This document shows positions 35,420-60,602 of a stretch of DNA of 64,000 nucleotides, piece by piece (the first letter of the stretch is position 1; the number at the start of each line of letters is the position of its first letter). The DNA lies in NCBI GenBank assembly GCA_017450125.1, contig JAFSWZ010000040.1, positions 1 to 64,000 of the forward strand, written 5' to 3'. A program made the translations under genes and the position numbers. A model generated the notes under the pieces. That model saw only the letters and a program-made list of their open reading frames with translations. It was not told where the DNA came from and did not search any database. Source of the stretch: Synergistaceae bacterium. Its GTDB lineage: Bacteria > Synergistota > Synergistia > Synergistales > Aminobacteriaceae.

Positions 35420-35953
35420 CTACATTGACTGACCGGCAGATTCTCCCTGACCTTCGCCGGAAGTCTCGCCCCAGCCCTGACCCCAGCCCTCAGAAGTGCC
35501 GGTCGCTTCCTGTGCTGGCTGTGCCTCCATACTTTCTGCTGACTGCTGGCTCTCCTGAACCTCGCTCTCCTTCACCGTGAACTTGTCGCAGTCCTTCGCC
35601 TTGTTCGAGGTAAATTCTTTGACCTGTTCCCTGTTGAGGTTGTTCATTAGTTCGCTGTAGTCAAAGTCGTTGCCCTTCATCTCATGTTTGTGCGACATGT
35701 TAGAGCCTGCGTCCTCAACTTGGTACAAGTCAGGGTTGTTCATGAGGTCGTTGAACTCCTTCTGCGTCAATCCCTGCTCCTCTGCCCAGCGTATTGCTCT
35801 GGCGTTCTCGCACCCGTACTTGTGCCCGAGATGGTGCTTGCCCTCTATCACTTTTCCTGAATAAGCGTCAACAAACTTACCGTCTTTGTTCTTACCTTTC
35901 GCCTCAACCTTCTCACGTACTTCTTTGCGGATGTACGGCCTGTGAAGTTTCAT
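35420..35953 (-). CDS. GH-E family HNH/Endo VII-type nuclease, probable toxin
   Basis: A 177-residue protein. Residues 1-95 match my knowledge of the GH-E group of HNH/ENDO VII nucleases found as toxin domains: RKEVREKVEAKGKNKDGKFV, then HLGHKYGCEN, a KEFNDLMNNPDLYQ segment and finally SNMSHKHEMKG. GH and E of the name are visible in LGHKYGCE, with a Cys before the Glu; a further His pair is in SHKHE. The C-terminal 60 residues are low-complexity, rich in Gly, Gln, Glu and Ser. There is no secretion leader or long N-terminal delivery domain, so it is free-standing. It is the last gene of the operon, six bases after the immunity gene. Probable effector cutting nucleic acid. Confidence 0.8.
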   Translation of the reverse strand: MKLHRPYIRKEVREKVEAKGKNKDGKFVDAYSGKVIEGKHHLGHKYGCENARAIRWAEEQGLTQKEFNDLMNNPDLYQVEDAGSNMSHKHEMKGNDFDYSELMNNLNREQVKEFTSNKAKDCDKFTVKESEVQESQQSAESMEAQPAQEATGTSEGWGQGWGETSGEGQGESAGQSM

Positions 35954-35959
35954 CCCTCA

Positions 35960-36283
35960 TCACTCCTTCTCCGGCTCAAACCCGAAATCCCTGCTGACCT
36001 TGAACGTCCCCGTCCCTTCTTCGCGCTCAAAGGCCATTCCCTCAGCCGCGTCAAGGTACGGGAAGACTGTCTTGTCGATGTTCAGGATAGTATTGATGTC
36101 GTAGATGCCTATGTTGTCCGGGTTGTCCGCGTATTCCTGATCCTCTGTGCCGGACATGAACACCCAGCCGCTGTACTGGTCATCATCGCCCGTCTTCTCG
36201 CGGTACATGAACCTCACAGGAAGCCGCCCGTCCACAAGCCGCCTCGATGCGTTGACGTAACCGAAATGGCTGATGTCTGCCAT
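35960..36283 (-). CDS. DUF2185-type immunity protein
   Basis: A 107-residue acidic cytoplasmic protein matching the DUF2185 family, which is known among immunity proteins of polymorphic toxin systems. Typical stretches are RLPVRFMYREKTGDDDQYSG, then SGTEDQEYADNPDNIGIYD and a late LDAAEGMAFERE. It directly precedes the GH-E nuclease gene (6-base gap), so it is the likely antidote for that nuclease. Immunity before toxin is the reverse of the usual polymorphic-toxin order and is what one expects if the antidote must be made first. A GGAGGGAG ribosome site precedes the ATG. Confidence 0.78.
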   Translation of the reverse strand: MADISHFGYVNASRRLVDGRLPVRFMYREKTGDDDQYSGWVFMSGTEDQEYADNPDNIGIYDINTILNIDKTVFPYLDAAEGMAFEREEGTGTFKVSRDFGFEPEKE

Positions 36284-36298
36284 AACGTTATCTCCCTC

Positions 36299-38491
36299 CT
36301 AGTATCTTCTGCGCTGGCCAAGATACTTGCTGTGAACCCAGCCGACTTTCCCCGTCTGGGTGCATACCTTGCGCCACGCCTTGCTTTGCCCGATGACTTC
36401 GACGAGGTGTCCGACGTAGAGTTTCCCGATAGAAGTATAGTTCGTGCCCGGCCCTTCGCGCAGGTTCAGTTCGTCGCCGGTTACACGCATAAGGACTCCT
36501 CCGTGCTCTCCCTTGTCGCCTATCCTATGCTGAAGAAGATCACTGCGTATCCATCCCTCAGCACCGCCCGGAAGCGTAACCTTGTACCACACGCCGTCGG
36601 CCCTCTGAGCGGGTTCGCCTGCATCTACAGGCACTCCCTCTTCAAGCACAGCAATAGAGGCAGCGTTGATGTCCGGCCTCTTCCTGACGTTGACCTTCGT
36701 GCCGAGCGTCGACAGCTTCAGCTTCCGTGCTGGCGCGTCCTTCTTCACCTGTTTGTTCCCCGTAGTCTTGGCCGGAACTTGCAGAGGAGTCGCGGCTGGC
36801 GAGGGCTGTCTCGCGGGAGCACGCTGGACTGACGCACTGCCAACAAGCGGCCGTTTTGCTGTCGGCATAATCTTTCCCCACGAAATGCTGGAGATTCCCC
36901 AGAGCAATAACCACATCACCAGCGCAGGCATGATGAACGGAACAGTCTTCCTCACCGCAAACTTCATCTTGTCGAAAGCATTAACCCCGCTGTCGATGAT
37001 TCGCGGCAGGACGGATTTTCCCTCGCCAAGAAGCCACATCACAGGCTCAAGCACCCCCGACGGACTGTACGCCCTGCCGTCAAGCTCATGACCAGTCGCT
37101 GTCGTGGCAAAATAGCGCGTGTCCGTGAAGTTCGCGGCAATGAGATTAACCACGCTCCTGAAGCCGTGAGCGTCAAGAAACCTCCTGCACACCTCCTCGT
37201 CCTGCAACCCGCCCGAAAGTTCCGCGCTGAACTTGTCTGCCTTAGTGATAACGACTGCCGCAGGTACTGTGCTCATCTGCGAGGTCGTCAGGCTCTTCAG
37301 CTTCTTGTGCTCGGAGCAGAAGGCAGAGATCGCCGCGTGTGTCTCTGACGGTGAAGCGTCAGGGTCAACCATCAGCATTATGCCTTTTGCGTACTCGAAC
37401 TGGAGCTGAAGGTAGTCCGCCGATGTTATGTTCTGGAAGGCCTCGCCCGCTATGTCGTACATGCTGAGCAGGTAGGGCACGTGCATCGAGAACTCATGCT
37501 TGATGCTGTACATTCCGGCGTTGAGTTCTGTTGTGCCGGAGATTTTGTTCCCGCTGTTGTACGCACCCTCGAGCGTCTGGAAGGCTCTCTGCGGATTGCA
37601 GGTGTGCGTGATGTGAGAAGGTATCCGGCGAAAGTACTCGTGGAAGAACGACGCAAGGTATGTCGTCTTGCCCGCGCTGGTGTTGCCGACCACCTGAATC
37701 CCGAAGTGCTGTGCGTAACCTTCAACGGGGCTGTTGCACAGCGGACACACCGCAACAAGATCGTTCCGTCCGTTGAAGACCGTCGTAGGGAGGAGCTCTC
37801 CGCATGAACACTTTGTGCGGAAAATGCCGTACGGTCCGGGCTGGAGGTTGTGGAGAGTGCCGCATTTCGGGCACACAAACAGAGGAACTCGCCTGCGCTT
37901 GCATTTCGGGCAGGGGTTGTCTATGGCGTTGAGGAGGAGGGCGGTCTTGTCCGAGAGCCTGAGCAGCATATAGCCCGCGAAGAACAGTAGCCACCCTGCG
38001 CCAAGCACCACCGACAGCAATGCGCAGAAGATGAGGGCGAAAGCGTACCCGAACAGGTACAAGGACAAGGCCGATGCCAGCCAGAATAAATATATCCAGA
38101 GGTCATGCAGGAAAAAATCTTCCCAGTGCAAGTTTCTTTCCGCAATACGTCCTATTTCTTGAAGCGCAGTCCCCATACCTGCACTTGAAGCTGACCATAT
38201 CATTTCGAGCTGCTTTAATCCAGGCCCGAAGAAGTATCCGCGTTTTACGCCGGGAGCGTGAGGGTGAGGGTCTGAGTAATAAGCATATGGGTTTCTGCTG
38301 GCAGACACAGCATGACAGAAAACATAGCCGGCCGTATACAGTGCAAACAGTACGCCTATGCCGGCAACAATTCCTCCTATCACGAGCAGCGCAGGCAGCA
38401 CTACATGCACAATGAACCATATGATAGCGGCAATAGCAATAACAATGAAGCCGAGAAACCCTAATGCCTCATCATCAGATTTCTTGCTCAC
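36299..38491 (-). CDS. Membrane GTPase with zinc ribbons and two SH3b domains
   Basis: A 730-residue protein. Hydrophobic segments span about 11-57 and 130-180. Zinc-ribbon pairs follow (CPKC 194-197, CPKC 207-210, CSC 228-230, CPLC 249-252). The GTPase domain has P-loop GNTSAGKT (269-276), switch II DIAGE (MYDIAGEAF) and base motif TKAD (VITKADKF), and ends with LEPVMWLL. A further hydrophobic stretch near 520-540, a Pro/Ala linker and two SH3b domains (KVNVRKRPDINAAS and LNLREGPGTNYTS) complete it. It fits the Double-GTPase type described in predicted conflict systems. Bacterial SH3 domains often bind cell wall or peptides. It overlaps the GAP1-like gene by four bases (ATGA). Confidence 0.8.
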   Translation of the reverse strand: MSKKSDDEALGFLGFIVIAIAAIIWFIVHVVLPALLVIGGIVAGIGVLFALYTAGYVFCHAVSASRNPYAYYSDPHPHAPGVKRGYFFGPGLKQLEMIWSASSAGMGTALQEIGRIAERNLHWEDFFLHDLWIYLFWLASALSLYLFGYAFALIFCALLSVVLGAGWLLFFAGYMLLRLSDKTALLLNAIDNPCPKCKRRRVPLFVCPKCGTLHNLQPGPYGIFRTKCSCGELLPTTVFNGRNDLVAVCPLCNSPVEGYAQHFGIQVVGNTSAGKTTYLASFFHEYFRRIPSHITHTCNPQRAFQTLEGAYNSGNKISGTTELNAGMYSIKHEFSMHVPYLLSMYDIAGEAFQNITSADYLQLQFEYAKGIMLMVDPDASPSETHAAISAFCSEHKKLKSLTTSQMSTVPAAVVITKADKFSAELSGGLQDEEVCRRFLDAHGFRSVVNLIAANFTDTRYFATTATGHELDGRAYSPSGVLEPVMWLLGEGKSVLPRIIDSGVNAFDKMKFAVRKTVPFIMPALVMWLLLWGISSISWGKIMPTAKRPLVGSASVQRAPARQPSPAATPLQVPAKTTGNKQVKKDAPARKLKLSTLGTKVNVRKRPDINAASIAVLEEGVPVDAGEPAQRADGVWYKVTLPGGAEGWIRSDLLQHRIGDKGEHGGVLMRVTGDELNLREGPGTNYTSIGKLYVGHLVEVIGQSKAWRKVCTQTGKVGWVHSKYLGQRRRY

Positions 38492-40824
38492 GATTCCTGT
38501 TCACCCCTCATGAATAACCCTGCCAGCTTACCCAGCAGTCCCTTCTTCGGCCTGCGCTTGAGCTCCTTCGTAGCAAGCTCCTCTATGTCCGCGAACATGT
38601 CCGACGCGGCTCTGTCCTTGCGCGGAGTAGCTTTGTCGAGCTGCGAGAGGGCTTTCTCCGGGCTGGACATCTCGTAGAGCACGTCAACCACAACATTAAC
38701 CGCCTCGTCCCTGTGAGCCTTCGACGAGTACGCGAGAAAACGCAGCCAGTCTTCAGGACGTTTCTTCACGCTGCTGACAAGCTCATACACCACGTCAAAC
38801 AGAAGCTCCCTCGAGGCCGTTCTGCTGAGTATCAGGCTGTACATGTACGCGCTGTCCTCGTCCGCGCTGAACTTCCGGGACATGAAGACCCTGCAGAATC
38901 TGTCGCTGTCCATCGACGTGAACAATGCTGTCTTCTCCGCCTCAGAGAGACGCACGGACGCACGAATCTCCTCCGCGAACCTTATGAGCTCGTCGGTTTT
39001 CTTGGCCGATTTTATGCCCCTGCCAAGCACCTTGCCCGCGAAATCGCCGAGCCCCTTATCGTCGAGCAGTCCGCAGAACTTCACTGCCTCAGCGAACGAC
39101 GCACAGATTGCAGGTTCTTCGTCAAGGATGAAGTTCACCACAAATTCCCCTTTGCCGCCCGCGCAGGTCAAAACCATATCCCTTGCTCTGGCACGGTTGC
39201 CGTCCTTTCCGCTCAGGAAGTCCATAAGCCCCGACATCGCTTCTTTGTCCCGCTTCTCTGCACACAGGCTTATGCACCGCGAGACCAACGCCCTAGTTTC
39301 ATCCTGCGTAATCTTGTGTTCCGTCATTCGTGCGCATTTGTTGAACAGCTTGCAGAAGTACAGACCTTCCGGCGGCGCAATCTCCGACGACACAAACTTC
39401 TTCAGTGCCTCCGCTGAAACAGCAACAGCCGCAGCATCCTTCCCGAAACTGCTTGAGAGTATGTGCTCCAGCAGCTCGTGCCTGCCGCTGAACATGTTTT
39501 CACGGACAAGAGCGCACATCGCGGAAGAGAGGTTTTCCCGTGCTGTGCCGTCGTTCATTGTGCGGGAGTTGCGCTCAACCCATTCGGCCAAGAGAACGGC
39601 AGCGTCAAAGTCCTGCTCCGCCACCCGCACGAAGCTGTCCCTAAGTGTGCTGTAGATTCGGCGTGCCTCCGGCGTATCAGCGAGGCCGTAACTGCACAAG
39701 CTCCCGACCACTGCGGAAAGTTCCCGTGAGGTGAGAGCATCAACGTTCTTGAGGCCGCAGAAAGCCTCGTAGAGTTCCGGCATGTCAGGCGAGGGATGCC
39801 GTATGTCCAGTGCCTGCAGGAAGCCAGCGCAGAACTCTCTGTGTTCGCTGTCGAAGCCCGTTATCGCGCCGAAGTACCCCGCGCCCGTGTCTGCCTCGAA
39901 CTCCGCAGTCATCTTCACTCCGTCGAGCACCGCAAACTGTTTCGCCGCAAACGCCATCACCGGCCCGTTGTTGCTGTTGTCCTGCATGTTCACGCCGACG
40001 ATCATCGCCCGAAACCTCATGCGCTGGCTGGGGTCCTGGAAGTTCATCATGGGCTGGTACTTGCCGTCAAGAGCCCTGACCGTGTAGACGTTGGAGGACG
40101 GGTAATTGTCCAGCCGCGTCGCGAAAGGCAGTCCCGCAGACATACGCGGCGAGAACGCACACTCTATCGCGGCAATCCACAGCTCGATGTTTCGCGAGCA
40201 GGCCTCACGTATCACGAGGTATCTGCGTTCTTCCGGCTTCAGGGCGTACTGCGCAATGAGAAACGACACAGCCTTCTTCAGCAGTTCCGTCCTGCCGCCC
40301 GCGATGAACTCCCTTATGTCGTCGAGCGTGTAACCCTTCCCCGATGGCACAAGCTCTCTCATTGGCAGAGGCGCAGGATTCACGGAGTAGTAGTAGGGTT
40401 CGTCGTTCAGCTTTGCGTTCCACACAGAAGAATCACCGAACAGTTCCCACGCGTAGAAGTTTCCGAAGTCCCCCGCAAAAATCTGGTTCAGAAAGTTGCC
40501 CGGCTTCTTGGTGTAGTTCCCCACGCGTTCAGGGTCATAGTGCACGGGGTGAAACTCTGTTATGAAGCTCTGTCCAAAGTCCGGCACGCAGTAGAGATAT
40601 GCTTCATCCATGAAGGGCTTTGCGCTGTCCGCATCGGAGTAAACATCAGCGTATGACTGTTTTGCCTGCGCGGCGTTGAGGAGAAGCTCTGCGTCAACAA
40701 AACCGCTCTGCGCAAGGAGTTCGGGACTGCAGGCGTAAACCTTGTAGCCCTCGCTCGTTATTGGTTTCCCGCTGAGGATGTCGATACCGTTCCGGCAGCG
40801 CGTGTAGATAAGTTCGTAGAACAT
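38488..40824 (-). CDS. GTPase-associated protein 1 (GAP1)-like protein
   Basis: A 778-residue soluble, mostly helical protein. The N-terminal part (MFYELIYTRCRNGIDILSGKP cut short, FITEFHPVHYD, LNQIFAGDFGNFYAWELF) looks like the GAP1-N domain found beside Double-GTPases. The rest is an alpha-helical repeat-like region without catalytic motifs that I can see, ending in a basic tail. It stands between the two GTPase genes, overlapping one by four bases and 11 bases from the other. It is probably the scaffold or regulator of those GTPases. The family call rests on resemblance plus context. Confidence 0.65.
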   Translation of the reverse strand: MFYELIYTRCRNGIDILSGKPITSEGYKVYACSPELLAQSGFVDAELLLNAAQAKQSYADVYSDADSAKPFMDEAYLYCVPDFGQSFITEFHPVHYDPERVGNYTKKPGNFLNQIFAGDFGNFYAWELFGDSSVWNAKLNDEPYYYSVNPAPLPMRELVPSGKGYTLDDIREFIAGGRTELLKKAVSFLIAQYALKPEERRYLVIREACSRNIELWIAAIECAFSPRMSAGLPFATRLDNYPSSNVYTVRALDGKYQPMMNFQDPSQRMRFRAMIVGVNMQDNSNNGPVMAFAAKQFAVLDGVKMTAEFEADTGAGYFGAITGFDSEHREFCAGFLQALDIRHPSPDMPELYEAFCGLKNVDALTSRELSAVVGSLCSYGLADTPEARRIYSTLRDSFVRVAEQDFDAAVLLAEWVERNSRTMNDGTARENLSSAMCALVRENMFSGRHELLEHILSSSFGKDAAAVAVSAEALKKFVSSEIAPPEGLYFCKLFNKCARMTEHKITQDETRALVSRCISLCAEKRDKEAMSGLMDFLSGKDGNRARARDMVLTCAGGKGEFVVNFILDEEPAICASFAEAVKFCGLLDDKGLGDFAGKVLGRGIKSAKKTDELIRFAEEIRASVRLSEAEKTALFTSMDSDRFCRVFMSRKFSADEDSAYMYSLILSRTASRELLFDVVYELVSSVKKRPEDWLRFLAYSSKAHRDEAVNVVVDVLYEMSSPEKALSQLDKATPRKDRAASDMFADIEELATKELKRRPKKGLLGKLAGLFMRGEQES

Positions 40825-40835
40825 CGTTATTCTCC

Positions 40836-42044
40836 TCAGTCAACAAATCCTGACCTCTTGAACAGCCACATCACCGGGTCAAGAACTCTGTGCGGCCTGA
40901 TGTCAGCGATGTAATTCCTCGCGTCAGGCGCAGAACCGAAGCTCGATACCCCGAAGAAGCGCATGTCCTTGAAGTTCGCCTCCAGTGCTGTGATGAACGC
41001 TCTCTCGCCTATCAGCATAAGCCAGTCGCGAATCTCCCTGTCCACTGCCGCAAACTCCCCCTCGTTCACATGGCCGTAACTGTCCGTGAGGAGCGAGGTA
41101 CTCTTGACGGTCGCACCGTTCGCGAAAGACGGGTGATTCAGCACGATGTCGAACTTCGTCAGCACTACGGCGACAGGCACGTTAAGCAGCTTGTCGGTGC
41201 TGATGTCGTAAGCACTGCGCAAGTACCTCGCCATGTCATTTACGATGTTCACGGGATTCTTGGCCTCGCTGTCCGTGCCTCCGAGTGAAGCTATGCGCGC
41301 CTCATCCGAGACTATTTCCCTGACTTTAGGCAGAATGAGCGGGTCGAGGGTCAGGATGATTGCCTTCGAGGCTCTGATGTTACGGCAGACCGGCGATGAC
41401 GGCGAAAGATTCTGCTCGTAGTTTTCCCCTGCTCCGTCGAAAATCGTGAAGGTGTAGGCCGGTACAGTGCTGCCCCTGCGCTGGCTGAGGTTCTTTATCA
41501 TCCATATCTGCGTGATTATTGAGCCTCCTGCATTTCCCTCTACGGGATAGCCTTTGTAGACAGTGTTTCTGTTCTTCTCGTGAATCTGCAAGGTTCGCTG
41601 ATCGGCTGCTGCCAGACTTAGCGGGATACCATGAAAGCGGCTCAGCTCCTCGAGCATAACGGTGATGTAGTTGGTCTTGCCGGAGCTTATCATGCCCACG
41701 ATGCTGAAAGGAAGATTCTTCGTGTCCAGCACTTCTGGAGGAAGCACTGCCTTACAGCTTTCTACAGGACATACTCTGAGAGTGGCTGTGCCTCCGCAGT
41801 TGGGGTTTGCGCATTTCACTGACTTGGTGGTGAATCTTCCCGGATGTGCTTCTGTTCCGCAGTCAGGACAGATGTGCCGTATCTCGCTCCTGTTGTACTT
41901 CTGCATACAGTACGGGCACGTAAAGCTGTTCGCGTCTCCGATGTTCAGGACTCTCATAACTACGTTGAGCAGACGCTTCGACAGCCCGAAAAGCCCCTTG
42001 CCGCCGCTGATCACCAGCCCAAATAAATCTTGCAGCAATTCCAT
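40836..42044 (-). CDS. Zinc-ribbon GTPase, Double-GTPase type
   Basis: A 402-residue protein with an amphipathic N-terminal helix (about 1-35), zinc-ribbon cysteines (CPYC 43-46, CPDC 59-62, CANPNC 78-83, CPVESC 92-97), and a GTPase domain with P-loop GMISSGKT (117-124), switch II DGAGE (IFDGAGENY) and base motif TKFD (VVLTKFDIV). The final LDPVMWLFKRSG parallels the end of the GTPase domain in the 730-residue membrane protein, so the two are paralogues. No SH3 domains or clear transmembrane helix. It may act as the soluble partner of the membrane GTPase. Confidence 0.8.
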   Translation of the reverse strand: MELLQDLFGLVISGGKGLFGLSKRLLNVVMRVLNIGDANSFTCPYCMQKYNRSEIRHICPDCGTEAHPGRFTTKSVKCANPNCGGTATLRVCPVESCKAVLPPEVLDTKNLPFSIVGMISSGKTNYITVMLEELSRFHGIPLSLAAADQRTLQIHEKNRNTVYKGYPVEGNAGGSIITQIWMIKNLSQRRGSTVPAYTFTIFDGAGENYEQNLSPSSPVCRNIRASKAIILTLDPLILPKVREIVSDEARIASLGGTDSEAKNPVNIVNDMARYLRSAYDISTDKLLNVPVAVVLTKFDIVLNHPSFANGATVKSTSLLTDSYGHVNEGEFAAVDREIRDWLMLIGERAFITALEANFKDMRFFGVSSFGSAPDARNYIADIRPHRVLDPVMWLFKRSGFVD

Positions 42045-44827: not shown

Positions 44828-47008
44828 TCAGTCCTCCCATGTGTCAGCGTCTTCTGTGCCGGATATTCCGCCCTTCACCGACGCACTCTCTCCGAGACTT
44901 TGCGCTATTGTCCCGAAAGCGTGGCCGAGTTCTCCCGAGCCCTCCACAAAGACAGCGTTTGCGTCGTCCGACGAAATATCTCGCAGGAAGTCTATGTCCG
45001 CTTCACCGAAGCCTATGCCCGCCGTGTCTATGCCTGCACGGTTGCACTGCCTCGCCGCCTTCACTGCCCTGCTCTGATCCGACCACACGCCGTCAGCAAG
45101 AACTATCGCGAACCTCCGGCCTTCTTCGTCCTCAAGAACGTCCATTATTTCCCCGAAAGGATGTGCCGAGTTTCCGTAGCCGGTCTGCCCGCACTTTATG
45201 GACTTTATGGCTCTGAGGCACTGCCTCTTGTCGTCCGTCAGCCTGCAGACTATTTTTGTACGGTCAGAGACGGCCATAATTCCGACGCGCGTATACTCTA
45301 AGTCCAGCTTGTCAACGAAATCGCACATCGCGTCCTGAGCGTCTTGCAGGGGCTCGCCGGACATGCTTCCCGACACATCCACCGCCATAACGAGATTCAG
45401 TGTCTCGGGCTCGGGGTCTTCCGTGCGTTCGACGGGACTCGAGAACTTCGACATGTCTTCAGGGACGGGCTCGCGGCGTATTGGAAGGTTCACGGAGGAG
45501 CTGTCCTGACGCGCTTCAACGTGAATTATCCCGTTGTTGTCGTAGGTGTACTGCACGCGGATTGTGGTCTTGCCCCTCGTCGAAGGGTTGTGCTGTATCC
45601 CCGTAACTACGTACCTGAACGTTACCTTGTTCTCCAGCGGAGCTTCTTTGTCGCCCTGAAGAACATAGATTTCCATATCGGCGGCCTTCTTCGACGTTGT
45701 CCTGAACGAGAAGGCTTTTGCTGCCTTTACTGGTCTGGGGTGGTCGGCGGGTATGATTATGTCGTTGATGTATCTTGTGCCGTCGGGGCTGACTGCTATC
45801 ATTCCCATTGCGTGGGCTGTGGTCTCGCGTACGGAGATTACCTCGAGACCCGAGAGCCTCCTCTCAGGCTTCACTAGGCCAGTGAACTGCGCTCTCTCAG
45901 TAACCTTCCTGCCGTCCTTCACGACGAACGACACGCGCGAGTACACGGGATTCTCCTTCACAGCCTGAACCGCCGCACCGAGTGCCACCGCCTCATCCGG
46001 GTTCACGTGGGCAATGGGCTTCTTGCCGAAGATTCCCGCGAGATGCTCAGAGACAGCGGGCATCCTCGTAGAGCCTCCGACCAGCAGGACATCAGCAACG
46101 TCGTTCACGCTGACCTGCGCCTTATCTAGCACGGACAGGCAGAAATCACCCGTGCGTTTGAGGAGGTCTGCCGTCGCCGAAGCGAACTCTGCGCGTGTTA
46201 CCTGCACAGTGATATTCCCCAAGACCGGCAGGGATACCACAGCGTTCACGCTCATGAGCTGCGAGAGGCTCTTCTTCACGCCCTCAGAGAGACCGCGTAT
46301 TGTCCTCATTGCCCGAAAGTCTGACTTTATGTCCTTGTCCGTCTCGGCAGAAACTTTGTCCGCAATGAGCTCCGAAAGCCTCTCGTCCCAATCCCGCCCG
46401 CCGAGAAAATGATCTCCGGCAACCGCAATGGCCTGAAGCTCGCCGTCCTTCTGCATGTGCGTCAGGGTAACGTCGAACGTTCCGCCTCCCAAGTCGTAGA
46501 CGAGAATATTCGCGTTCTCGCGCCAGTGGTTAAGGCCGTAGGAGATTGCGGCGGCGTTGGGTTCATCGATTATCTTGCGGACAATCAACCCTGCCTCCTG
46601 CGCGGCGTTGAGGGTTGCTTCCCGCTCCACAGAGTAGAAGTAGGCAGGAACGGTGATGACTGCGTCGGCGATTTCTTGGCCTGTGCCTGCTTCGGCGTAC
46701 TCCTTGATGTACCTCAGGAGCATTGACGACAGCTCTTCGGCCGTGTAATCCTTGCCGTCTATTGCGCAGTAGGTCTCGTTCTTCCCCATGCTGCGCTTGA
46801 ACGTCGCCGCACATCCCCCAAGCCCGAGCCTGAACGCTTCCTCTGCTTCGCTCCCGAAAATCGGCCTGCCTTCCTCGAAGAGAATCACCGACGGTGTTAT
46901 GTGCCTGCCGTCGGGGTTGGGGATGATTTCCGGGCGGCCTGTTGATGGGTTGACGTACGCTGCCGCAGAATACGTTGTGCCTAAGTCTATGCCGATCGAT
47001 ATTGGCAT
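44828..47008 (-). CDS. Hsp70 fused to a von Willebrand factor A domain
   Basis: A 726-residue protein. The Hsp70 ATPase domain has phosphate-1 motif IGIDLGTTYSAAAYV, phosphate-2 VYDLGGGTFDVTL and adenosine motif VLLVGGSTRMPAV, followed by a beta substrate-binding-like part to about 520. In place of the helical lid and EEVD-type tail is a vWA domain (about 538-705) with a complete MIDAS: DVSGS (544-548), a Thr/Gly loop GQTGYG and Asp in VLADGVWSD. Fusion of a chaperone ATPase to a metal-dependent protein-binding domain is rare and suggests regulated recruitment of a partner. It is separated from the upstream Hsp70 gene by six bases. Confidence 0.85.
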   Translation of the reverse strand: MPISIGIDLGTTYSAAAYVNPSTGRPEIIPNPDGRHITPSVILFEEGRPIFGSEAEEAFRLGLGGCAATFKRSMGKNETYCAIDGKDYTAEELSSMLLRYIKEYAEAGTGQEIADAVITVPAYFYSVEREATLNAAQEAGLIVRKIIDEPNAAAISYGLNHWRENANILVYDLGGGTFDVTLTHMQKDGELQAIAVAGDHFLGGRDWDERLSELIADKVSAETDKDIKSDFRAMRTIRGLSEGVKKSLSQLMSVNAVVSLPVLGNITVQVTRAEFASATADLLKRTGDFCLSVLDKAQVSVNDVADVLLVGGSTRMPAVSEHLAGIFGKKPIAHVNPDEAVALGAAVQAVKENPVYSRVSFVVKDGRKVTERAQFTGLVKPERRLSGLEVISVRETTAHAMGMIAVSPDGTRYINDIIIPADHPRPVKAAKAFSFRTTSKKAADMEIYVLQGDKEAPLENKVTFRYVVTGIQHNPSTRGKTTIRVQYTYDNNGIIHVEARQDSSSVNLPIRREPVPEDMSKFSSPVERTEDPEPETLNLVMAVDVSGSMSGEPLQDAQDAMCDFVDKLDLEYTRVGIMAVSDRTKIVCRLTDDKRQCLRAIKSIKCGQTGYGNSAHPFGEIMDVLEDEEGRRFAIVLADGVWSDQSRAVKAARQCNRAGIDTAGIGFGEADIDFLRDISSDDANAVFVEGSGELGHAFGTIAQSLGESASVKGGISGTEDADTWED

Positions 47009-47014
47009 GACCTG

Positions 47015-48727
47015 TTACCCCTGAACTGTGCCGGATGTGTTGATTCGTCCGATAAGTTTCTTGTCGCTCTCCACCTGCTCCCGCGTCTTGAGGAACTCTG
47101 ACCTCAAGCTGGCTTCGGCCGTCTCGCCCGTCGTAACATTGGTCGCGTACACAGTGAGACCGTCAGAGCCGCACTTGAAGCGTATCAGTATCGGCGCGCC
47201 CTTAGGAGTTCCCGCAGGAAGAGGCAGGATGACAGTGCCGAGATGCTTCACCTTGAGCGTCGGGTCTGTCGCCTGAGGTTCACCCTTTTTGTTGAACGGA
47301 GGAGTAACGTAGCGTTCGTCCTTGCTGATGTTCTCGAACACAGGCACTGTGAGTTCCGGCAGGTTGTCTTCAGCAACTTTGTACGTCTCCTCTGCCTCTG
47401 CGGGCGACGGGCCTCCGATGAAAAGCAGGTTGTCGATCATCAGCTCCTTGCCGCCGGGAGCACCGGGAGCAGGCACAAGCACAGCAGGGCCGAACGAGCG
47501 CGAAAGTATATCCGCAACCTCAATAGTTCCGCCCTCACCGAATGCCTCGATGAGGCCGCGCACCGTATCATCATCGCCGCCGCCACCGTTGGTATCTACT
47601 TCCTCCGTGCGTTCCTTGAACTTCTCGATGTACTTCATGCCCGCAGCAATCGCCGCACCTTTCGCCACCGCATAATCAGGATCCTCTACCCTCACGCGCA
47701 GGCTTCCGCTGTCCTTCTCCGGGAACATTGCCTTGACGGCATCCTGCACCATCGGCATACGCGTTGAGCCCCCGACGAGAAGCACTGTGTCTATGTCGTC
47801 TGCACTGAGGCCGTTTTTCCCCAGAAGCTGGCTGACGAACGTTGTTGTTCTCTCAACAAGAGTCTTGGTGCGCTCGCGGAACTCCTCTGCAGTTATGGTG
47901 ATTCTCGTTGTTCCGACGTTTATGCTAAGGGTCGGCAGAAGAGAGAGCCTCTTCTTGTTTTCCTCCGACTGTGCCTTTATCAGCGCAGTTGTCCTCGCGT
48001 CTATGTCTTTGGTGCTGATGCCGTTCTCGTCGGCATAAAGCTCGCTGATGTAGGTTTCCATCATCTTGTCCCAGTCCACGCCGCCTAACCTGTCGTCGCC
48101 CGTAGAGTCCAGAATCACTATCTGTGCGTTGCCCCCGAACTCATCGACGGAGAAGTCCAGAAGCGTAACATCAAACGTGCCTCCGCCCAAGTCGTAGACC
48201 ATTATTCTCCTGTTCTCGCTGAACTCGTGCGAACAGTAATTCAGTGCCGCCGCTGTAGGTTCGTGAATTATGTCGAGGACTTCGAGCCCCGCTATCTCTC
48301 CTGCCTGACGGGTTGCTGTCTTCTCCGCGTTGCCGAAATACGCCGGGCACGTGATTACTGCCTTGCTGACAGGGTAGCCCTGTTCCTCGACCTCCTGCTT
48401 CATGCGCTTGAGTATCAGCGACGAGACCGTGATAGGGTCATAGTCCACGCCGTCGAATGAATACCTCACGTCTTCCTTGCCTATCTCGCGCTTCACGAAC
48501 TGCACAACTCTGTCTGGTTCAGAAGCCGCCATCTTCTTGGCCTCCTTGCCGACTATCTGGAAGTGAGGCTGCTGTCCCGTCTCGTCGGGCTGGAAGTACA
48601 CCGCAGAAGCTATCTTCCTGTCCTCTTCGCTGTAGAGCTCGAACACTTCCGGCTTGGCGTTGTTGTCCAGCGTCGCGATAACTGAATACGTCGTCCCTAA
48701 ATCAATACCGAAAACTTTCTCTGCCAA
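47015..48727 (-). CDS. DnaK-like Hsp70 protein, divergent
   Basis: A 570-residue Hsp70. The ATPase domain is complete: VFGIDLGTTYSVIATLDN, VYDLGGGTFDVTLLDF and VLLVGGSTRMPMVQDA. After about residue 390 comes a Gly/Asp-rich linker (GGGGDDDTVRG) and a divergent substrate-binding region with DPTLKVKHLGTVILPLPAGT. The canonical DnaK is about 610-640 residues, and the helical lid is short or missing here. It starts with TTG after AGGAAAGGAAG. A housekeeping DnaK would stand with dnaJ and grpE; this one sits with GTPases and a VirD4-like ATPase, so it is a dedicated paralogue. Confidence 0.87.
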   Translation of the reverse strand: MAEKVFGIDLGTTYSVIATLDNNAKPEVFELYSEEDRKIASAVYFQPDETGQQPHFQIVGKEAKKMAASEPDRVVQFVKREIGKEDVRYSFDGVDYDPITVSSLILKRMKQEVEEQGYPVSKAVITCPAYFGNAEKTATRQAGEIAGLEVLDIIHEPTAAALNYCSHEFSENRRIMVYDLGGGTFDVTLLDFSVDEFGGNAQIVILDSTGDDRLGGVDWDKMMETYISELYADENGISTKDIDARTTALIKAQSEENKKRLSLLPTLSINVGTTRITITAEEFRERTKTLVERTTTFVSQLLGKNGLSADDIDTVLLVGGSTRMPMVQDAVKAMFPEKDSGSLRVRVEDPDYAVAKGAAIAAGMKYIEKFKERTEEVDTNGGGGDDDTVRGLIEAFGEGGTIEVADILSRSFGPAVLVPAPGAPGGKELMIDNLLFIGGPSPAEAEETYKVAEDNLPELTVPVFENISKDERYVTPPFNKKGEPQATDPTLKVKHLGTVILPLPAGTPKGAPILIRFKCGSDGLTVYATNVTTGETAEASLRSEFLKTREQVESDKKLIGRINTSGTVQG

Positions 48728-48749
48728 TGTTCAACGCTTCCTTTCCTGA

Positions 48750-49289
48750 TTAGTTCACTTTCCTGTAGAGCTTCACGAGCTCCTGTATTATCGGGTGATT
48801 CTCCCTGCAGAAACCCGTCTGCACACTCTCCGCAATCTTCCCGTGAAGTTCCTGATCCTCCGTGTCCTCGTAACCCACAACGTGAGTCAGACGGAGCTTG
48901 CGTTCACTGCCCTGTTCGCTCTTCTGCGGGTGAACGCCGTAACACTCCAGCACCTGCAGAACGTCAAGCAGTATGTAGCCCACTCTCTTGCGCAGTGTCT
49001 CGTCCTCTATCGAGGCGGGAAGGCTCTCGTGGTCAACGTATATCCGCGCTATGTCCCTGAGAATGTCGTCGAACGCACGGCCTCTGTCGATATCGCGGTA
49101 CTTCTCGAGCTCTGACTCTGCGGCACGTATTCTTCCGGCCTGGAAGTTCTGGCATATCTTGTGAATCTCCCTCAGCTCCGTGAACACGTGCTGCATCATC
49201 GTATCTTCCGCCGGTTTCTCCTCCGCGACCTGCGGGACTGGTTCGGCCTGCACGGGGTCAACAGCCGATGTTTCCTGTTCTTCACACAT
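48750..49289 (-). CDS. GrpE-like protein, divergent
   Basis: About 179 residues: an acidic low-complexity start, a long helix (about 50-90) and a short C-terminal part with GVHPQKSEQGSE and VQTGFCRENHPIIQELV, which recall the GrpE motif around GVEP and the final beta hairpin. GrpE releases ADP from Hsp70. Gene position (immediately before the Hsp70 gene) supports the call, but sequence similarity is weak. ATG 49289 (AAAGGAG upstream) is preferred to an earlier in-frame start at 49364, which would overlap the preceding gene. Confidence 0.5.
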   Translation of the reverse strand: MCEEQETSAVDPVQAEPVPQVAEEKPAEDTMMQHVFTELREIHKICQNFQAGRIRAAESELEKYRDIDRGRAFDDILRDIARIYVDHESLPASIEDETLRKRVGYILLDVLQVLECYGVHPQKSEQGSERKLRLTHVVGYEDTEDQELHGKIAESVQTGFCRENHPIIQELVKLYRKVN

Positions 49290-49314: not shown

Positions 49315-50712
49315 CTAGATGCTGCCGATGAATATTCCTTCCTTCCTGTAAACGCACGCCACACCGGAAGGGAGGCTCTCTATGCTCCTGCCCCTGACTC
49401 GCGGCAAGTCATGTTCCTGCTCGCTGAGGCTTTCTGCAGGGTTATAGCTTGCCCATCCGCCGGAACTCGAATGCTCGCGCTGTGTCTTTATCTTCCTGTA
49501 TGTGCCGAAATACTCCGACCACCTGCGGCAGGAGTCCGCGCTCTGGTGGCAGAAAACGCACACAACCCCTGCATCGTGCGTCAAGTCCCGGAACAGTTCG
49601 TCGGAGTTGTTCTCGTGAGTGTACTTCGAGCGGGACAACGACAATGACGCGGCAAAATCACTGTGGCTGATAGCGTACGTCCTGCCCCTGATGATGTCGC
49701 TGATCTCCGGGAATTTCGCGATGTAGAAATCATCAATGATGAAGTTGAAGTTACAGTGATTTTTGTCTAGAAGAAGAAGGTAGTTGATGAGCAGCTTCAC
49801 GGCGAGTTCTGCAGTGCCTTTGCCGATGTCTATCATCACAGCTCCGTTGTGGTTCAGCGTGCGCACTATGCTTGAGCGTCCGGCTCTCTTTGCGCCGAAT
49901 ACATGCCTGAAGTCATCGGCCAAGTTCGTCAGGAACGTACGCAATGACACTCTCGCCCCTGAACCTGCGTCGTAATCCTCGAGCCAGTCAGAATACTGTT
50001 TCTTCGTCAGCACTCCCGAAGCGTTGAGGCGTATTATCCCGTCCCTGAGCTTACCGAGCGGGAAGGAAGCGATGTCCTCTATGCACGCATCAGGCCGCTT
50101 TGTGAGTACTACATTGACCAGCGCGCGCAAGAGAGATTCTGTGCCATTATCCTCGCCGATGGTGTCAGAGATCAGCCTCACAATGTCATCAGGTATCAGC
50201 CCGGCAAAAATGTCGCAGTAAAGCCCTTTCGCCGAGATTATCTCGTGTACCTTGCAGCTGGAGGCAATCATTGACTCGAGCGTGGAGTCGGAGTTGTGGA
50301 TTATCACGAGCGGCATATTGCTGGTCTGCGACCTATAGATGAACGGCATCAGAGTCCTGCACCTGTCCGCCTCTGTTCCGCCGGAAACCACCACGCTCTC
50401 GGGAAGTTTGCTGTCTCCTTTCAGGTAGTCTAATGCAGGTTCAGCGTCCTTATCAGTAACGGTCTCTGTGTCGTCGAATTTCGGGTCATCGTTGAGGCAG
50501 ATAGCATTCTTGTCGACAGAAGATGAGACACGCACTCCGCGATTGTTCTTGCTGGCTCGTGCTGTGCGGCGTATCCTCTTGCCGTCCTGGAACAGGGATA
50601 AAGTCTTCCGCAGAACAGTGAACGCCCCTAAAAACGTTGCACCGACTATTTTAGTTGCTACACCAAAAGCTATGCCGAAGAAGGAATCTATCGCTCTCTC
50701 AAAGATATCCAT
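49315..50712 (-). CDS. Degenerate VirD4/TraG-like ATPase partner
   Basis: A 465-residue protein with a hydrophobic N-terminal segment (about 9-35) and a basic stretch after it. VVVSGGTEADRCRTLMPFI occupies the place of a Walker A motif but lacks Lys-Ser/Thr. NFIIDDFYIAKFPEISDII parallels Walker B and the downstream sensor region of the neighbouring ATPase, followed by a SHSDFAASLS segment in the place of LAGLQSIRQL. I read it as a catalytically dead paralogue that could form mixed rings with the active one. It starts one base after the stop of that gene. The similarity was judged by eye and needs a profile comparison. Confidence 0.5.
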   Translation of the reverse strand: MDIFERAIDSFFGIAFGVATKIVGATFLGAFTVLRKTLSLFQDGKRIRRTARASKNNRGVRVSSSVDKNAICLNDDPKFDDTETVTDKDAEPALDYLKGDSKLPESVVVSGGTEADRCRTLMPFIYRSQTSNMPLVIIHNSDSTLESMIASSCKVHEIISAKGLYCDIFAGLIPDDIVRLISDTIGEDNGTESLLRALVNVVLTKRPDACIEDIASFPLGKLRDGIIRLNASGVLTKKQYSDWLEDYDAGSGARVSLRTFLTNLADDFRHVFGAKRAGRSSIVRTLNHNGAVMIDIGKGTAELAVKLLINYLLLLDKNHCNFNFIIDDFYIAKFPEISDIIRGRTYAISHSDFAASLSLSRSKYTHENNSDELFRDLTHDAGVVCVFCHQSADSCRRWSEYFGTYRKIKTQREHSSSGGWASYNPAESLSEQEHDLPRVRGRSIESLPSGVACVYRKEGIFIGSI

Positions 50713-50713
50713 G

Positions 50714-52015
50714 TTACTTGTACTCCTTGAACTTGAAGCGGAACGGCGGAATCTCAGGCATACCCACCACAGCTTCGCCGGTCTCCAGCGAAATTATGTC
50801 CCAGTCCTCGACCACAAAACCGTCATGACGCTTGTACTCTGCTGTCCCGTCGGCATGTTCGAGGCGTTCAACAACAGCATTCTTCCCGAACATTCCGCTG
50901 ACGTATTCGCGGGTATTCGGGTCTGAAGACCTGAAGGCCGCAACCGTCGAGAAGCCTGCTATTGCGTTGTGTGCCTGAGCCTCTTTGTCGTAAATCGCGT
51001 CGAGCTGCCTGATGCTCTGAAGCCCGGCGAGTATCTTCAGGCCAAGACTGCGCCCGAAGTTGATTCCGTCGTCGAGGTGGCGTAGTCTGGGCAGGAGCTT
51101 AAGCTCGTCGGCGATAAGGTAGACGTTGCCCTGCGACTTCGTGCGTCCCAATGCTTCCTTGAGTGCGAGGTCAAACAGCAGCGAGTACACCGGCGCAAGG
51201 ACATCACCTATCGCTAGGTCATACTCGAGGAAGACAGTTCGTCCCTGCTTCGCGCGGATGAACCTCCGCATCGAGAAATCCCCCGCGTCGGCGAACACTC
51301 CCGTCAAGATGTCGCGCATCGTGCTGTACACTTCAGAGAGCACGCCCTGCGACTGGTTAGCGGCTCTGGGGTCAATGTACGTGCTGATTGTCTGAAGGTC
51401 TTTGTGGGCGGAGAACGTGTCGTGGAAGTCTTTTGCGGTCATTGTGTCGAGGGCGTATTTCAGGTCGGCGTTGGTGAACTTCAAGCCCTTCCTGATGAAT
51501 GAAATCATTAGTGCACCGAGAAGGTCAGAGGCGGCGGCGGGAAAGAAGGGGTTGTTGTTGTTCTCCATTCGCCGGGCAAAGAATGACTTGCAGATTTCCT
51601 GTACGTTCTGGGAGATTGAGACGTTGTCCCAGCCGTCTGCGGTGATTTCGTTGTGTATGCTCCATTTTGCGGAGGCCTGCCTGTACTTGGCGGAGTTGCC
51701 GATTACTGAATCTTTCTTGGGGTCGTAGAACTTGTCGCAGAAGTCTCCTTTGCTGTCGAAGATCATCATCACGTCGGATGAAGTCATCTTCTCCTTGAGC
51801 TGCCGGACAATGTGGTAGAAGAGATTAGTTTTGCCCGTGCCTGTCCCGCCTAACAGGAGGATGTGGCGGCTGAGGATATCATCAGTGAGCCCGAAGGATG
51901 ACTCTCTGCCAGAATGCTTGCCGCTGAGAATCACTGAGGCAGTGCCTTTGCTGAGAGGAGGCGGGGAGTTATTTGCCAGAACAGAACCGTAAACAACATC
52001 GCTGGTAAGATTCAT
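50714..52015 (-). CDS. VirD4/TraG-like ATPase (type IV coupling protein fold)
   Basis: A 433-residue P-loop ATPase. Walker A is LGGTGTGKTNL near residue 55, MMIFDSKGDF follows, as in coupling proteins of type IV secretion, then the FFPAAASDLLGALM helix, Walker B VYLIADEL, and the sensor LKILAGLQSIRQLDAIYD. It lacks an N-terminal transmembrane anchor; the degenerate partner gene next door supplies one. No relaxase, mating-pair or oriT genes are near, so conjugation is unlikely. ATG 52015 follows GGAGG (52026-52030). It is the first gene of the 11-gene operon. Confidence 0.8.
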   Translation of the reverse strand: MNLTSDVVYGSVLANNSPPPLSKGTASVILSGKHSGRESSFGLTDDILSRHILLLGGTGTGKTNLFYHIVRQLKEKMTSSDVMMIFDSKGDFCDKFYDPKKDSVIGNSAKYRQASAKWSIHNEITADGWDNVSISQNVQEICKSFFARRMENNNNPFFPAAASDLLGALMISFIRKGLKFTNADLKYALDTMTAKDFHDTFSAHKDLQTISTYIDPRAANQSQGVLSEVYSTMRDILTGVFADAGDFSMRRFIRAKQGRTVFLEYDLAIGDVLAPVYSLLFDLALKEALGRTKSQGNVYLIADELKLLPRLRHLDDGINFGRSLGLKILAGLQSIRQLDAIYDKEAQAHNAIAGFSTVAAFRSSDPNTREYVSGMFGKNAVVERLEHADGTAEYKRHDGFVVEDWDIISLETGEAVVGMPEIPPFRFKFKEYK

Positions 52016-52060
52016 CAATGAATTTCCTCCTGCGTATGGGATGCAGGTATCTTACCACAG

Positions 52061-52095
52061 ATAAAAGAAGGGAGACAGACCTTAGACCGTCCCCC
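52061..52095 (-). terminator. Terminator after iscU
   Basis: On the minus strand GGGGGAC and GTCTCCC form an imperfect stem (plus 52089-52095 and 52070-52076) followed by TTCTTTTAT. It separates the isc operon from the conflict operon, so the latter needs its own promoter. I see only a weak TAAGAT at 52050-52055 (minus strand). Confidence 0.65.
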
Positions 52096-52105
52096 TGAGT
52101 GATGA

Positions 52106-56965: not shown

Positions 56966-59900
56966 TTAACGTGGTTTCCTTCCGAACAAGAATATTCCCG
57001 CGCAAATCAATCCTGCAACGCCGAACACGCCAGCACTGCACCCGCCATGTGATGATGGAGCAGGCTCACCGTTACCCGCCGACGAAGCGGATACGTAGCT
57101 TTCTTGCTCACCGGCTGCCGCGCTGATTTCGAGCGTCCTGAACTCGCGTTCTCCTGCATGAGCCGAAGCATAGACTATGAAGTCTCCGTTGACTGCCTCA
57201 GCTGGGAGGGTGAAGATTCCGTCCTCCGAGATGTCCGCGCTCACGGCTTCGTCATTGACGAACACAGCGACATCTGAGACCTCAATATTACGGCCGTATT
57301 CGTCCTGCCACTGCCCTATCTCGAACGTGAGAGGTTCACCGGCCTCTACAGGCACATAACCTTCGAGCTTCTCGTCCCCGCTAAGGAGGTACAGCCTTGT
57401 GTAGACAGCGTCTGACGTGCTGCCGCTGTCAGGGGTATCAGCTGTGGGTGCTGAGCCCGTGTTAGAGGGGGTGTTAGTCTGCCCTGTGCTCTCAGAGGTG
57501 TCGCCCTCGTCATCTTCAGCCTCCTTATCGTCTCCGGTCGAGTCGTCAGCCTTCAGTATTACGATGGAGAGCTGGACTGTCTCTTCGCCGGCCTTGTTCT
57601 TGGCCTTCACGGTTATGTTGAATGGTCCCGCCTTCTTGGGAGTACCGTAGATGATGCCTTCCTTCTTGTCGAGCTTCAGGCCGCTCGGGAACTTGCCGAT
57701 CTTGCTCCACTTTATGGGGTCAGTGCCTGATGCTCTGAGGTATTCGGTGTACTCTACGCCAACCCTTCCGTCAGGCAAGGATGCCGTTATGATGGTTGGT
57801 GCTGTCTTCACGACCTTAACCTTGAACGACTTCGTTACGGAGCCCTTCTCGTTCTCAGCCTTGACCTTGAACTTGTACTTGCCGAGTTCCATAGGTATGC
57901 CGGAAATCCTGCCGGTATCCTCTTCGAGCGTCATCCAGTCCGGCAGATCTCCGACGGCGTACCACGCTATAGGTTCTGCGCCAGAGCATTCGAGGGTAGC
58001 TTCCCACATGCTGCCTACGTGGGCATCAGGTAGTTCTTTGGACGTATATTTGGGCTTGGTTGTGCTGCCTGTGCCGCCTGACTTGTAGTAGGGGTTTTTC
58101 GCGATATTCACGGTGTACGACTGCTCGACATACCCGTTATTGCTGCCCGTAACCCTTATCGTGAACGGGAACGCGCCTGCCTTCTTGGGAACACCCTCCA
58201 AGAATATGTAGTTCTGATATGCTTCAAGCCTTGTACCAGGAGGCAGCTCTCCAGCGACAACCGAAGCAGTGTACGGTGATGATCCGCCTCTGACGGTAAT
58301 GTAGGAAGAGTAATTGAGACGCATCATCTTCCACTGTACGAATCCGCCTCGCAGCGACATGCTGTAGTTCCGCCAAGCCGTGCTTGATGCCGGTGATATT
58401 TTCAGGGTGTAAGACCGCGTGTTGTACCCGCCGTCGCTGATTCTCTTCGCCTGCAGCGTGAACTCATAGGTGCCTGAAGCCTTTGGTATTCCGCTCAAGT
58501 AGACTTTGCCGACGTTGTAGCCGTTTGCTGATTTTTCCTCGATGCTCAAGCCTGGAGGAAGAGAGCCTTTCGAGACAAGGAATATGTAATTGTCGAGGTT
58601 CTTCGTGCTTGGCGATGAAGTATCCTTGATGCCCGTCCAGTCGTAATAGCTTGTCCCTGCCTGACCGCTGAGGAAGTTGTACAACAGCTTTATATTTGGG
58701 TCTTGGTATTCTGTGGCTACGTTCCCGACGTAGATGACGAACTCGCGTGTTGTCGTTGTGCTAGAGTCGCCGACTAGGTTGCTGAGTTCCACAGTGAACC
58801 TGAAGCACCCTGTCTGAGTGGGGATACCCGTAATCGTAGCTTCGCGCTTGCTGGATTTGCCGTTAAAGGTCAATCCTGGCGGAAGCTTGCCTTTGGTGAT
58901 CTTCCATCTCATGCTCCATTCGGTGCCCTTTGCCTTGATGGTTTGGTTGTAGCGGGAGTTCAGGTCGCCGCGTGCAAGTGTCTCCGCAGTCTCGAACACT
59001 GGAGGCTCATACACCACGATGTAGCTCTGCTTATGGGCTGATGAGCCGGATGAGTTTGCGGCCGTAACGCTGAAGTAGTACATCAAGGGCATGTACGAGT
59101 CCTTCCCCGCGTCGGTATGAGCGACAGTACCGCTGATTGTGCCCGTTGTACCTGAGCCGCTTATGGACAGTCCGGGAGGAAGGTTGGTGCGTAGGTGTGA
59201 TGCACTTGACGGAAGAGTCCCGGCTGATGTCGACCACGTTATTGGGGTTGAGCCTGTGGCTGTCAGGGTGTTGCTGAACCATGTCCCTGCTACGACTGTC
59301 TTGGGAAGGCTGCCGATGCTGGTGATTACCGGGATCGGAATAGGGCCAGGCTTAATTACGTTGTAGGTGTTTTCGGGCATCCACGCTATGCGCCAGCGTC
59401 CGTCAGATGTTGCGTACATGACCTGACACCAGCCGTTCTCTTTGGTGAGAAGGTAGCACTGATCTTCTGCATCAATACCGTACGACCAGCTCCGCCCGGA
59501 ATTGAGACGCCTATAGAGGCCATAAGCACTCCTCGCCGCCTTGAAGGACTCTGTCTCCGACCCCTTGACGAAGAGCTCGCGCAGTCTCACGTATGCAGTC
59601 CTGCGCCCGCTTGATGTAGGGTAGGATATTTGAGCGTATACGACGCTGTTGCTGTTCACGCCGACACCTAGCAGCCAGTCTTCATCGTTCTCACCTGTCC
59701 ACGCGCTTGAAGAAAGCCTGCTTGTCAGCTCCTTGTTGCTGTACAGGTTGTAGTAGCGTCCAGAGGAGAGCGTGTATATCTTGGCGTACTTGCTCGAGGT
59801 CAGACTGCGGAGTCCCTGACTGTATATTGCGGGGTTCTCGACATAATCGTCGTCAGGTCTTGGAGGGAATGGCACTGAACCGAAGCGGTATATCGAGAAA

Positions 59901-60469: not shown

Positions 60470-60528
60470 GAAAATCTATCCTCCTTCTTCATGCACAAAA
60501 ATTCCGTATGCCTTCATGCGCCGCTGAC

Positions 60529-60549
60529 AACCTCCCCCTAAGGAGGCTT
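60529..60549 (-). terminator. Hairpin after the papain-like protease gene
   Basis: CCTCC (60531-60535) and GGAGG (60542-60546) form a short stem in the 133-bp gap between two large minus-strand genes. The T run on the minus strand is poor, so termination is uncertain. Nothing else is seen in the gap. Confidence 0.3.
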
Positions 60550-60602
60550 CTCCTCATGCCCGCACCTCCTGCACCGCCTTACACAGTGCGCAAACGAGAC
60601 CC

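Follow-up and report, generated by a model that had tools for sequence, protein, structure and literature searches.

A lidless Hsp70-vWA fusion in a compact operon of a Synergistaceae bacterium, probable chaperone core of a predicted GTPase-centred conflict system

Two Hsp70 genes lie side by side in the DNA of a Synergistaceae bacterium analysed here (contig JAFSWZ010000040.1 of assembly GCA_017450125.1, positions 1 to 64,000; this whole stretch of 64,000 nucleotides is referred to as the window), and one of them encodes a vWA domain at the place where an Hsp70 carries its helical lid. This arrangement raises the question of which process would be served by a chaperone built in this way. We propose, with a probability of roughly 0.6, that the fusion protein is the chaperone core of a GAP1-N2-type GTPase-centred system that includes Hsp70; systems of this type are predicted to act in conflict, as defence or in the response to stress.

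The two genes are part of a row of 11 consecutive genes on the minus strand, running from 52018 to 35420, in which gaps and overlaps do not exceed ~25 bases throughout (Table 1), and this tight spacing of same-strand genes is one of the reasons for the conflict-system reading. Upstream of the operon lie nifU, nifS and a Rrf2-type gene, with a terminator-like hairpin between them and the operon, terminator-like sites in this region being no more numerous than in shuffled sequence. An empty-site test on four relatives gave no clean insertion point, because the gene that follows nifU varies among them and the trypsin-like gene flanking the operon is absent after nifU in all four. A PADLOC search returned weak generic matches and nothing more. 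Elsewhere in the window, two large secreted-type proteins are encoded at 56966-63887 (minus strand), the second of which has papain-like, lectin and Ig-like domains.

Table 1. Features of the operon and of its upstream border, in positions of the window.
Feature	Position	Strand	Remarks
Terminator-like hairpin, nifU/operon interval	52069..52096	-	10-pair stem, then T-rich tail
TraD/VirD4/HerA-superfamily ATPase	50714..52018	-	first gene of the operon; Pfam TrwB_AAD_bind E 2.2e-44, Walker A GGTGTGKT
465-aa protein, unknown family	49315..50712	-	no Walker A seen
GrpE-like protein, tentative	48750..49289	-	Pfam GrpE E 0.0024, below cut-off
Second Hsp70, 570 aa	47015..48727	-	Pfam HSP70 E 2.2e-76
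Hsp70-vWA fusion, 726 aa	44828..47008	-	Pfam HSP70 E 1.4e-105; VWA E 2.7e-20
J-like/double zinc-ribbon-like/FN3-repeat protein, 917 aa	42068..44821	-	fn3 E 2.5e-6; DZR below threshold
GTPase with N-terminal zinc ribbons, DO-GTPase2-like	40836..42044	-	DO-GTPase2 E 7e-4, below cut-off
778-aa protein in GAP1 position	38488..40824	-	GAP1 matches below threshold in G051 relative
Membrane DO-GTPase, zinc ribbons, C-terminal SH3 repeats	36299..38491	-	DO-GTPase2 E 4.8e-11, SH3_3 E 7.2e-23
Imm33 immunity-type protein	35960..36283	-	Pfam Imm33 E 4.4e-25
GH-E HNH/EndoVII nuclease, possible effector	35420..35953	-	Pfam GH-E E 7.1e-18

The original prediction of two neighbouring Hsp70 proteins, one of them with a vWA domain in the place of the lid, was confirmed: the two frames are separated by 6 bases, both products belong to the Pfam HSP70 family, and a single frame encodes the whole fusion. 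The protein comprises an NBD (residues 1-350), a disordered insert (359-390), an SBD-beta (~392-515) and the vWA domain (538-689), which follows the SBD-beta where both alignment and model lack an SBD-alpha lid. The SBD-beta was recognised by a profile (E 2.5e-18 in a 3-sequence search) and by matches to DnaK SBD structures of the PDB (E 1.3e-6), and residues 1-516 superposed on full-length DnaK in its ATP state (PDB 4b9q) with a Z of 46.8 and an rmsd of 2.3 over 472 residues. The AlphaFold2 model of the fusion, based on 31 alignment rows, had a mean pLDDT of 78; residues 1-350 and 391-515 were modelled at high confidence, the insert at low and the vWA domain at moderate to low confidence. The second Hsp70 consists of an NBD followed by a very divergent C-terminus, weakly SBD-beta-like in a profile comparison, in which no lid was seen and for which the PDB gave no match.

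Regarding the vWA domain, its Pfam match lies far beyond chance, and the modelled domain shows, at low confidence, the order of strands and helices of a vWA; when modelled alone, with no relatives, its pLDDT was 46, too low to look for similar folds. A complete MIDAS had been predicted for it. When the domain was aligned to a profile built from 24 further sequences, almost all of which are clear vWA domains, D544, S546, S548 and D639 fell in the expected columns, but the threonine is out of register: its column holds a Gly in the fusion, with T609 one residue earlier, so that a complete MIDAS is possible at best. That the domain is a metal-free module for peptide binding or dimerisation, simply replacing the lid, is quite possible and compatible with either of the readings of the operon weighed below; the Gly in the threonine column favours such a module and the very low model confidence of the loop at ~607-618 was counted for it, against which stand the conservation of D544, S546, S548 and D639 and the fact that T609 could supply the MIDAS threonine through a small loop insertion. 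We consider it unlikely that the fusion represents a new kind of Hsp70 whose metal-dependent vWA, in the lid's place, would couple closure over the client to the capture of a second protein.

The Hsp70 part itself retains its ATPase residues. The motifs DLGTT, DLGGGT and GGST are present in the NBD, together with the catalytic K, E, D and T residues. Compared with DnaK, HscA and HscC of E. coli in an alignment, both Hsp70s were unchanged at the catalytic and nucleotide-binding positions examined, which include D8, G10, T11, T12, K70, E171, D194, GGGT and D201 (DnaK numbering). The positions that contact the J domain, on the other hand, are altered in both proteins (R167 to K or D; N170 to D or H). 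The linker VLLLD is replaced by ISVRE or IEVAD, and a long insert precedes it in both. The combination of retained ATPase residues with changed J-contact residues is a further reason for the conflict-system reading.

Neither gene was expected to be a housekeeping one, and this holds, because the housekeeping DnaK of the genome is encoded on another contig (C10; E 6e-242) and both Hsp70s stand apart from it. In phylogenetic analyses neither protein grouped with the DnaK of Synergistales, the 570-aa protein only by a small margin: placing the fusion inside the Synergistales DnaK clade was rejected by the AU test (p = 0.0038), and placing the 570-aa Hsp70 there was marginally rejected (p = 0.041). 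A first NBD tree located both on long branches outside the branch of DnaK, HscA and HscC (93/98) and left open their grouping with a lidless Hsp70 encoded on a plasmid of Rhodococcus pseudokoreensis (NZ_CP070617); in a second tree, from which four very long rows had been taken out, the three proteins formed one clade (99/96). Although this grouping also speaks for the conflict-system reading, the kinship is suggestive only, since it had not been expected in advance and the branches that it unites are long. The long branches, together with the occurrence of the fusion in one genome of the phylum, could also be taken to mean that it is an ordinary DnaK paralogue that drifted and acquired a vWA by accident, its neighbourhood being irrelevant. 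We regard this as very improbable, given the tight operon, the presence of two different Hsp70s with all catalytic residues retained, and the description of a similar gene set by Kaur et al. in the text on their HSP70 theme (PMC7159879).

The Rhodococcus plasmid offers a further comparison. Its module unites a lidless Hsp70, a J-protein, a GrpE and an ATPase of the pumping type within a single row, as the operon does with its own lidless Hsp70s, its J-like and GrpE-like proteins and its TraD-like ATPase; unlike the operon, it has no GTPase, FN3 or vWA annotated, its J motif is HPN in place of HPD, and it lies near Tn7-like transposition genes. This row (L061, 9989-15977), with its lidless Hsp70, J-TPR protein, GrpE and FtsK/SpoIIIE ATPase, may represent a separate accessory system.

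Two co-chaperone-like genes had been predicted near the Hsp70 pair, and both assignments stood only in part. For the GrpE-like protein, the Pfam match is colinear (residues 70-190 of the protein against 37-154 of the family) but below the cut-off, a profile-profile comparison with five GrpEs gave no match, and none was found in the PDB. Although the frame can be prolonged to a GTG at 49364, a start there would overlap the preceding gene; the internal ATG at 49289, at which the region of the original prediction ends, is the better start. For the J-like protein, the first ~27 residues do resemble J domains (hhalign E 3.4e-4, probability 38%, over 27 residues corresponding to the first helix), but nothing beyond them does and the HPD motif is absent from this N-terminus. 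The loss of HPD and the changed J-contact residues of the Hsp70s would be consistent with an interface of which both sides have been rewritten, as judged from one sequence per side, and changed contacts in both Hsp70s facing a J-like partner without HPD fit an insulated, private machine. With respect to DnaK-DnaJ-GrpE, then, the likeness consists of the NBD and SBD-beta of the fusion and of its GrpE-like and J-like neighbours, whereas the missing lid, the long linker insert, the changed J-contact residues and the separate branch set it apart. In G037 (contig C44, ~15830-16012) and G032 (contig C103, ~1086-1262), frames of ~1010 aa, both with two interrupting TGA codons, match the zinc-ribbon region of this FN3 protein.

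The neighbouring genes led us to compare the operon with the GTPase-centred conflict systems, built on DO-GTPases and GAP1, that were predicted by Kaur et al. in 2020 (PMC7159879). According to their text on the HSP70 theme of the GAP1-N2 systems (~14%), it comprises an HSP70 and a GrpE, with a second HSP70 devoid of the peptide-binding domain in a subset; FNIII proteins that carry a DnaJ or TPR fusion; a zinc-ribbon DO-GTPase and a second DO-GTPase with TM helices and SH3; and a GAP1 protein with GAP1-N2, M and C domains. The operon shares with this description an Hsp70 and a second one without a normal peptide-binding domain, a GrpE-like gene, a J-like/FN3 protein, a protein in the GAP1 position, a zinc-ribbon DO-GTPase and a membrane DO-GTPase with SH3, and this close agreement of the domain sets is a main reason for the conflict-system reading. 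On its own side it has the Hsp70 fused to a vWA, the TraD-like ATPase with its 465-aa neighbour, the Imm33/GH-E pair, a Synergistales host and a J domain without HPD; none of these features appears in the passages on the HSP70 theme. As far as those passages and our domain assignments go, the operon looks like a version of the predicted system type, to which the fusion and the ATPase would be added features.

Of the two GTPases, the membrane copy scored above the curated cut-off of DO-GTPase2 and has hydrophobic N-terminal segments, while the zinc-ribbon copy scored below it and shows CxxC pairs, an SGKT P-loop and 53% identity to its relative in G051 (CAJOEQ01), the nearest named relative, grouped in the same genus. 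The 778-aa protein itself had no Pfam match and no significant GAP1 domain. Its G051 relative, 47% identical over the aligned part and located beside the GTPase, showed GAP1-N2 at positions 1-15 (E 8.6) followed by GAP1-M at 26-89 (E 0.053), in the right order though below threshold and neither significant alone. This order is another reason for the conflict-system reading and, together with its position, makes the 778-aa protein a probable GAP1 protein. At the start of the operon, no further conjugation gene was found among the scanned neighbours of the TraD-like ATPase. The 465-aa protein gave no significant match in Pfam, NCBIfam or the PDB; it was considered as an inactive sister of the ATPase, an idea dropped as BLASTP found no match. 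At the 3' end, the GH-E nuclease gene directly follows that for Imm33, and the pair may be a passenger, because it is missing beside the corresponding GTPase in G051. A second GTPase cluster was noticed in the same genome on contig C24 (L057, 9959-15431). Its products are a dynamin-like GTPase of 782 aa, a DO-GTPase2-like protein (E 1.1e-6) and a P-loop paralogue that has a coiled coil at its C-terminus.

The distribution of these genes is very patchy. Among 188 genomes of Synergistota, the Hsp70-vWA fusion was found only in this one, its C-terminal part being matched elsewhere in the phylum only by separate vWA or SBD regions; the 465-aa protein occurred in 1 of the 188 and the protein in GAP1 position in 2, which fits an acquired system. 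A scan of genome contigs for the pattern of the DO-GTPase pair retrieved G051 alone (CAJOEQ010000119.1), with peptide patterns too narrow for this result to speak for genomes beyond Synergistota. No plasmid or phage record covered 80% of the fusion, plasmid records had no match to either GTPase, and a scan of viral contigs with the single fusion protein and a scan with the vWA gave no relatives; the scan with the Hsp70 alignment retrieved Hsp70s of 31-35% identity, which were taken as alignment rows. Plasmid matches annotated as dnaK in Ruminococcus and Subdoligranulum were rejected as relatives of the system, being hrcA-grpE-dnaK-dnaJ operons.

The main rival to the conflict-system reading is a dedicated assembly chaperone: the Hsp70 pair and the GrpE-like and J-like proteins would fold or assemble an envelope machinery of membrane GTPase, FN3 and SH3 proteins, with no role in conflict, and the nuclease pair would be an unrelated toxin cassette. 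In support of this idea, one GTPase has hydrophobic N-terminal segments and SH3 domains. The FN3, GTPase, GAP1-like and membrane GTPase genes also have relatives on the fragmented contigs of G051, which lack GH-E/Imm33, with no close relative of these Hsp70s among the matches listed from this assembly, where contigs may be missing, as if the chaperones were optional. Nevertheless, the patchy distribution and the overlap of the gene set with the conflict system described in the HSP70-theme text (PMC7159879) imply that an assembly chaperone is somewhat unlikely.

A different class of predicted defence operons, CoCoNuT, also includes Hsp70-like and vWA proteins with FtsK-like ATPases (PMC11090510). 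There the Hsp70 occurs either as a fusion with McrB/McrC homologues or on its own, and the TerY-type vWA is a protein by itself (PMC11090510); our operon has no McrB. The motif DVSGSMSGE is common to the vWA of the fusion and a Caballeronia vWA. The Caballeronia plasmid pSBC2-5 (L065, 5567-19002) has a row of genes for two vWA proteins, a WXG100 protein, an FtsK-type ATPase, a CARF protein, a PP2C phosphatase and a kinase, which resembles published CoCoNuT extensions.

If the operon is a conflict system, its parts could work as follows. We infer that the membrane SH3 DO-GTPase, the zinc-ribbon DO-GTPase and the GAP1-like protein would form a nucleotide-controlled switch, and that sensing would fall to the J-like FN3 protein, which would deliver a client or an invader protein to the Hsp70-vWA. 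The lidless SBD-beta would bind this client under the control of ATP, the vWA, in the lid's stead, would dock the fusion on a partner of the system, possibly the GTPases, and the GrpE-like protein would reset it. Candidates for output are the TraD-like ATPase and the GH-E nuclease at the end of the operon, which Imm33 would hold in check. Several points weigh against the conflict-system reading: the GAP1 matches are below threshold, the GrpE-like and J-like assignments are weak, the branches of the Rhodococcus grouping are long, the GH-E/Imm33 pair is absent from G051, and the multicellular habit with which GAP1-N2 systems are reportedly associated, in the relevant text of Kaur et al. (PMC7159879), is not known for Synergistales. 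A defence protein, bNACHT25, depends on host DnaJ for phage sensing (PMC12169576), and a private chaperone set in a conflict operon would be a plausible extension of such dependence.

The DO-GTPase/GAP1 systems are so far genome predictions, and our literature search found no experiment on any of their members. A compact, complete-looking operon with intact Hsp70 catalytic residues represents a direct way in, since mutations can be placed separately in the Hsp70 ATPase, in the vWA and in the GTPases. Furthermore, a lidless Hsp70 with a binding module in place of the lid and a J interface that has been rewired would be a test of how much rebuilding the standard Hsp70 cycle allows and, if the coupling of client closure to capture through the vWA were true within a conflict system, the chaperone itself would be the sensor-switch from which a GTPase or ATPase effector receives invader proteins.
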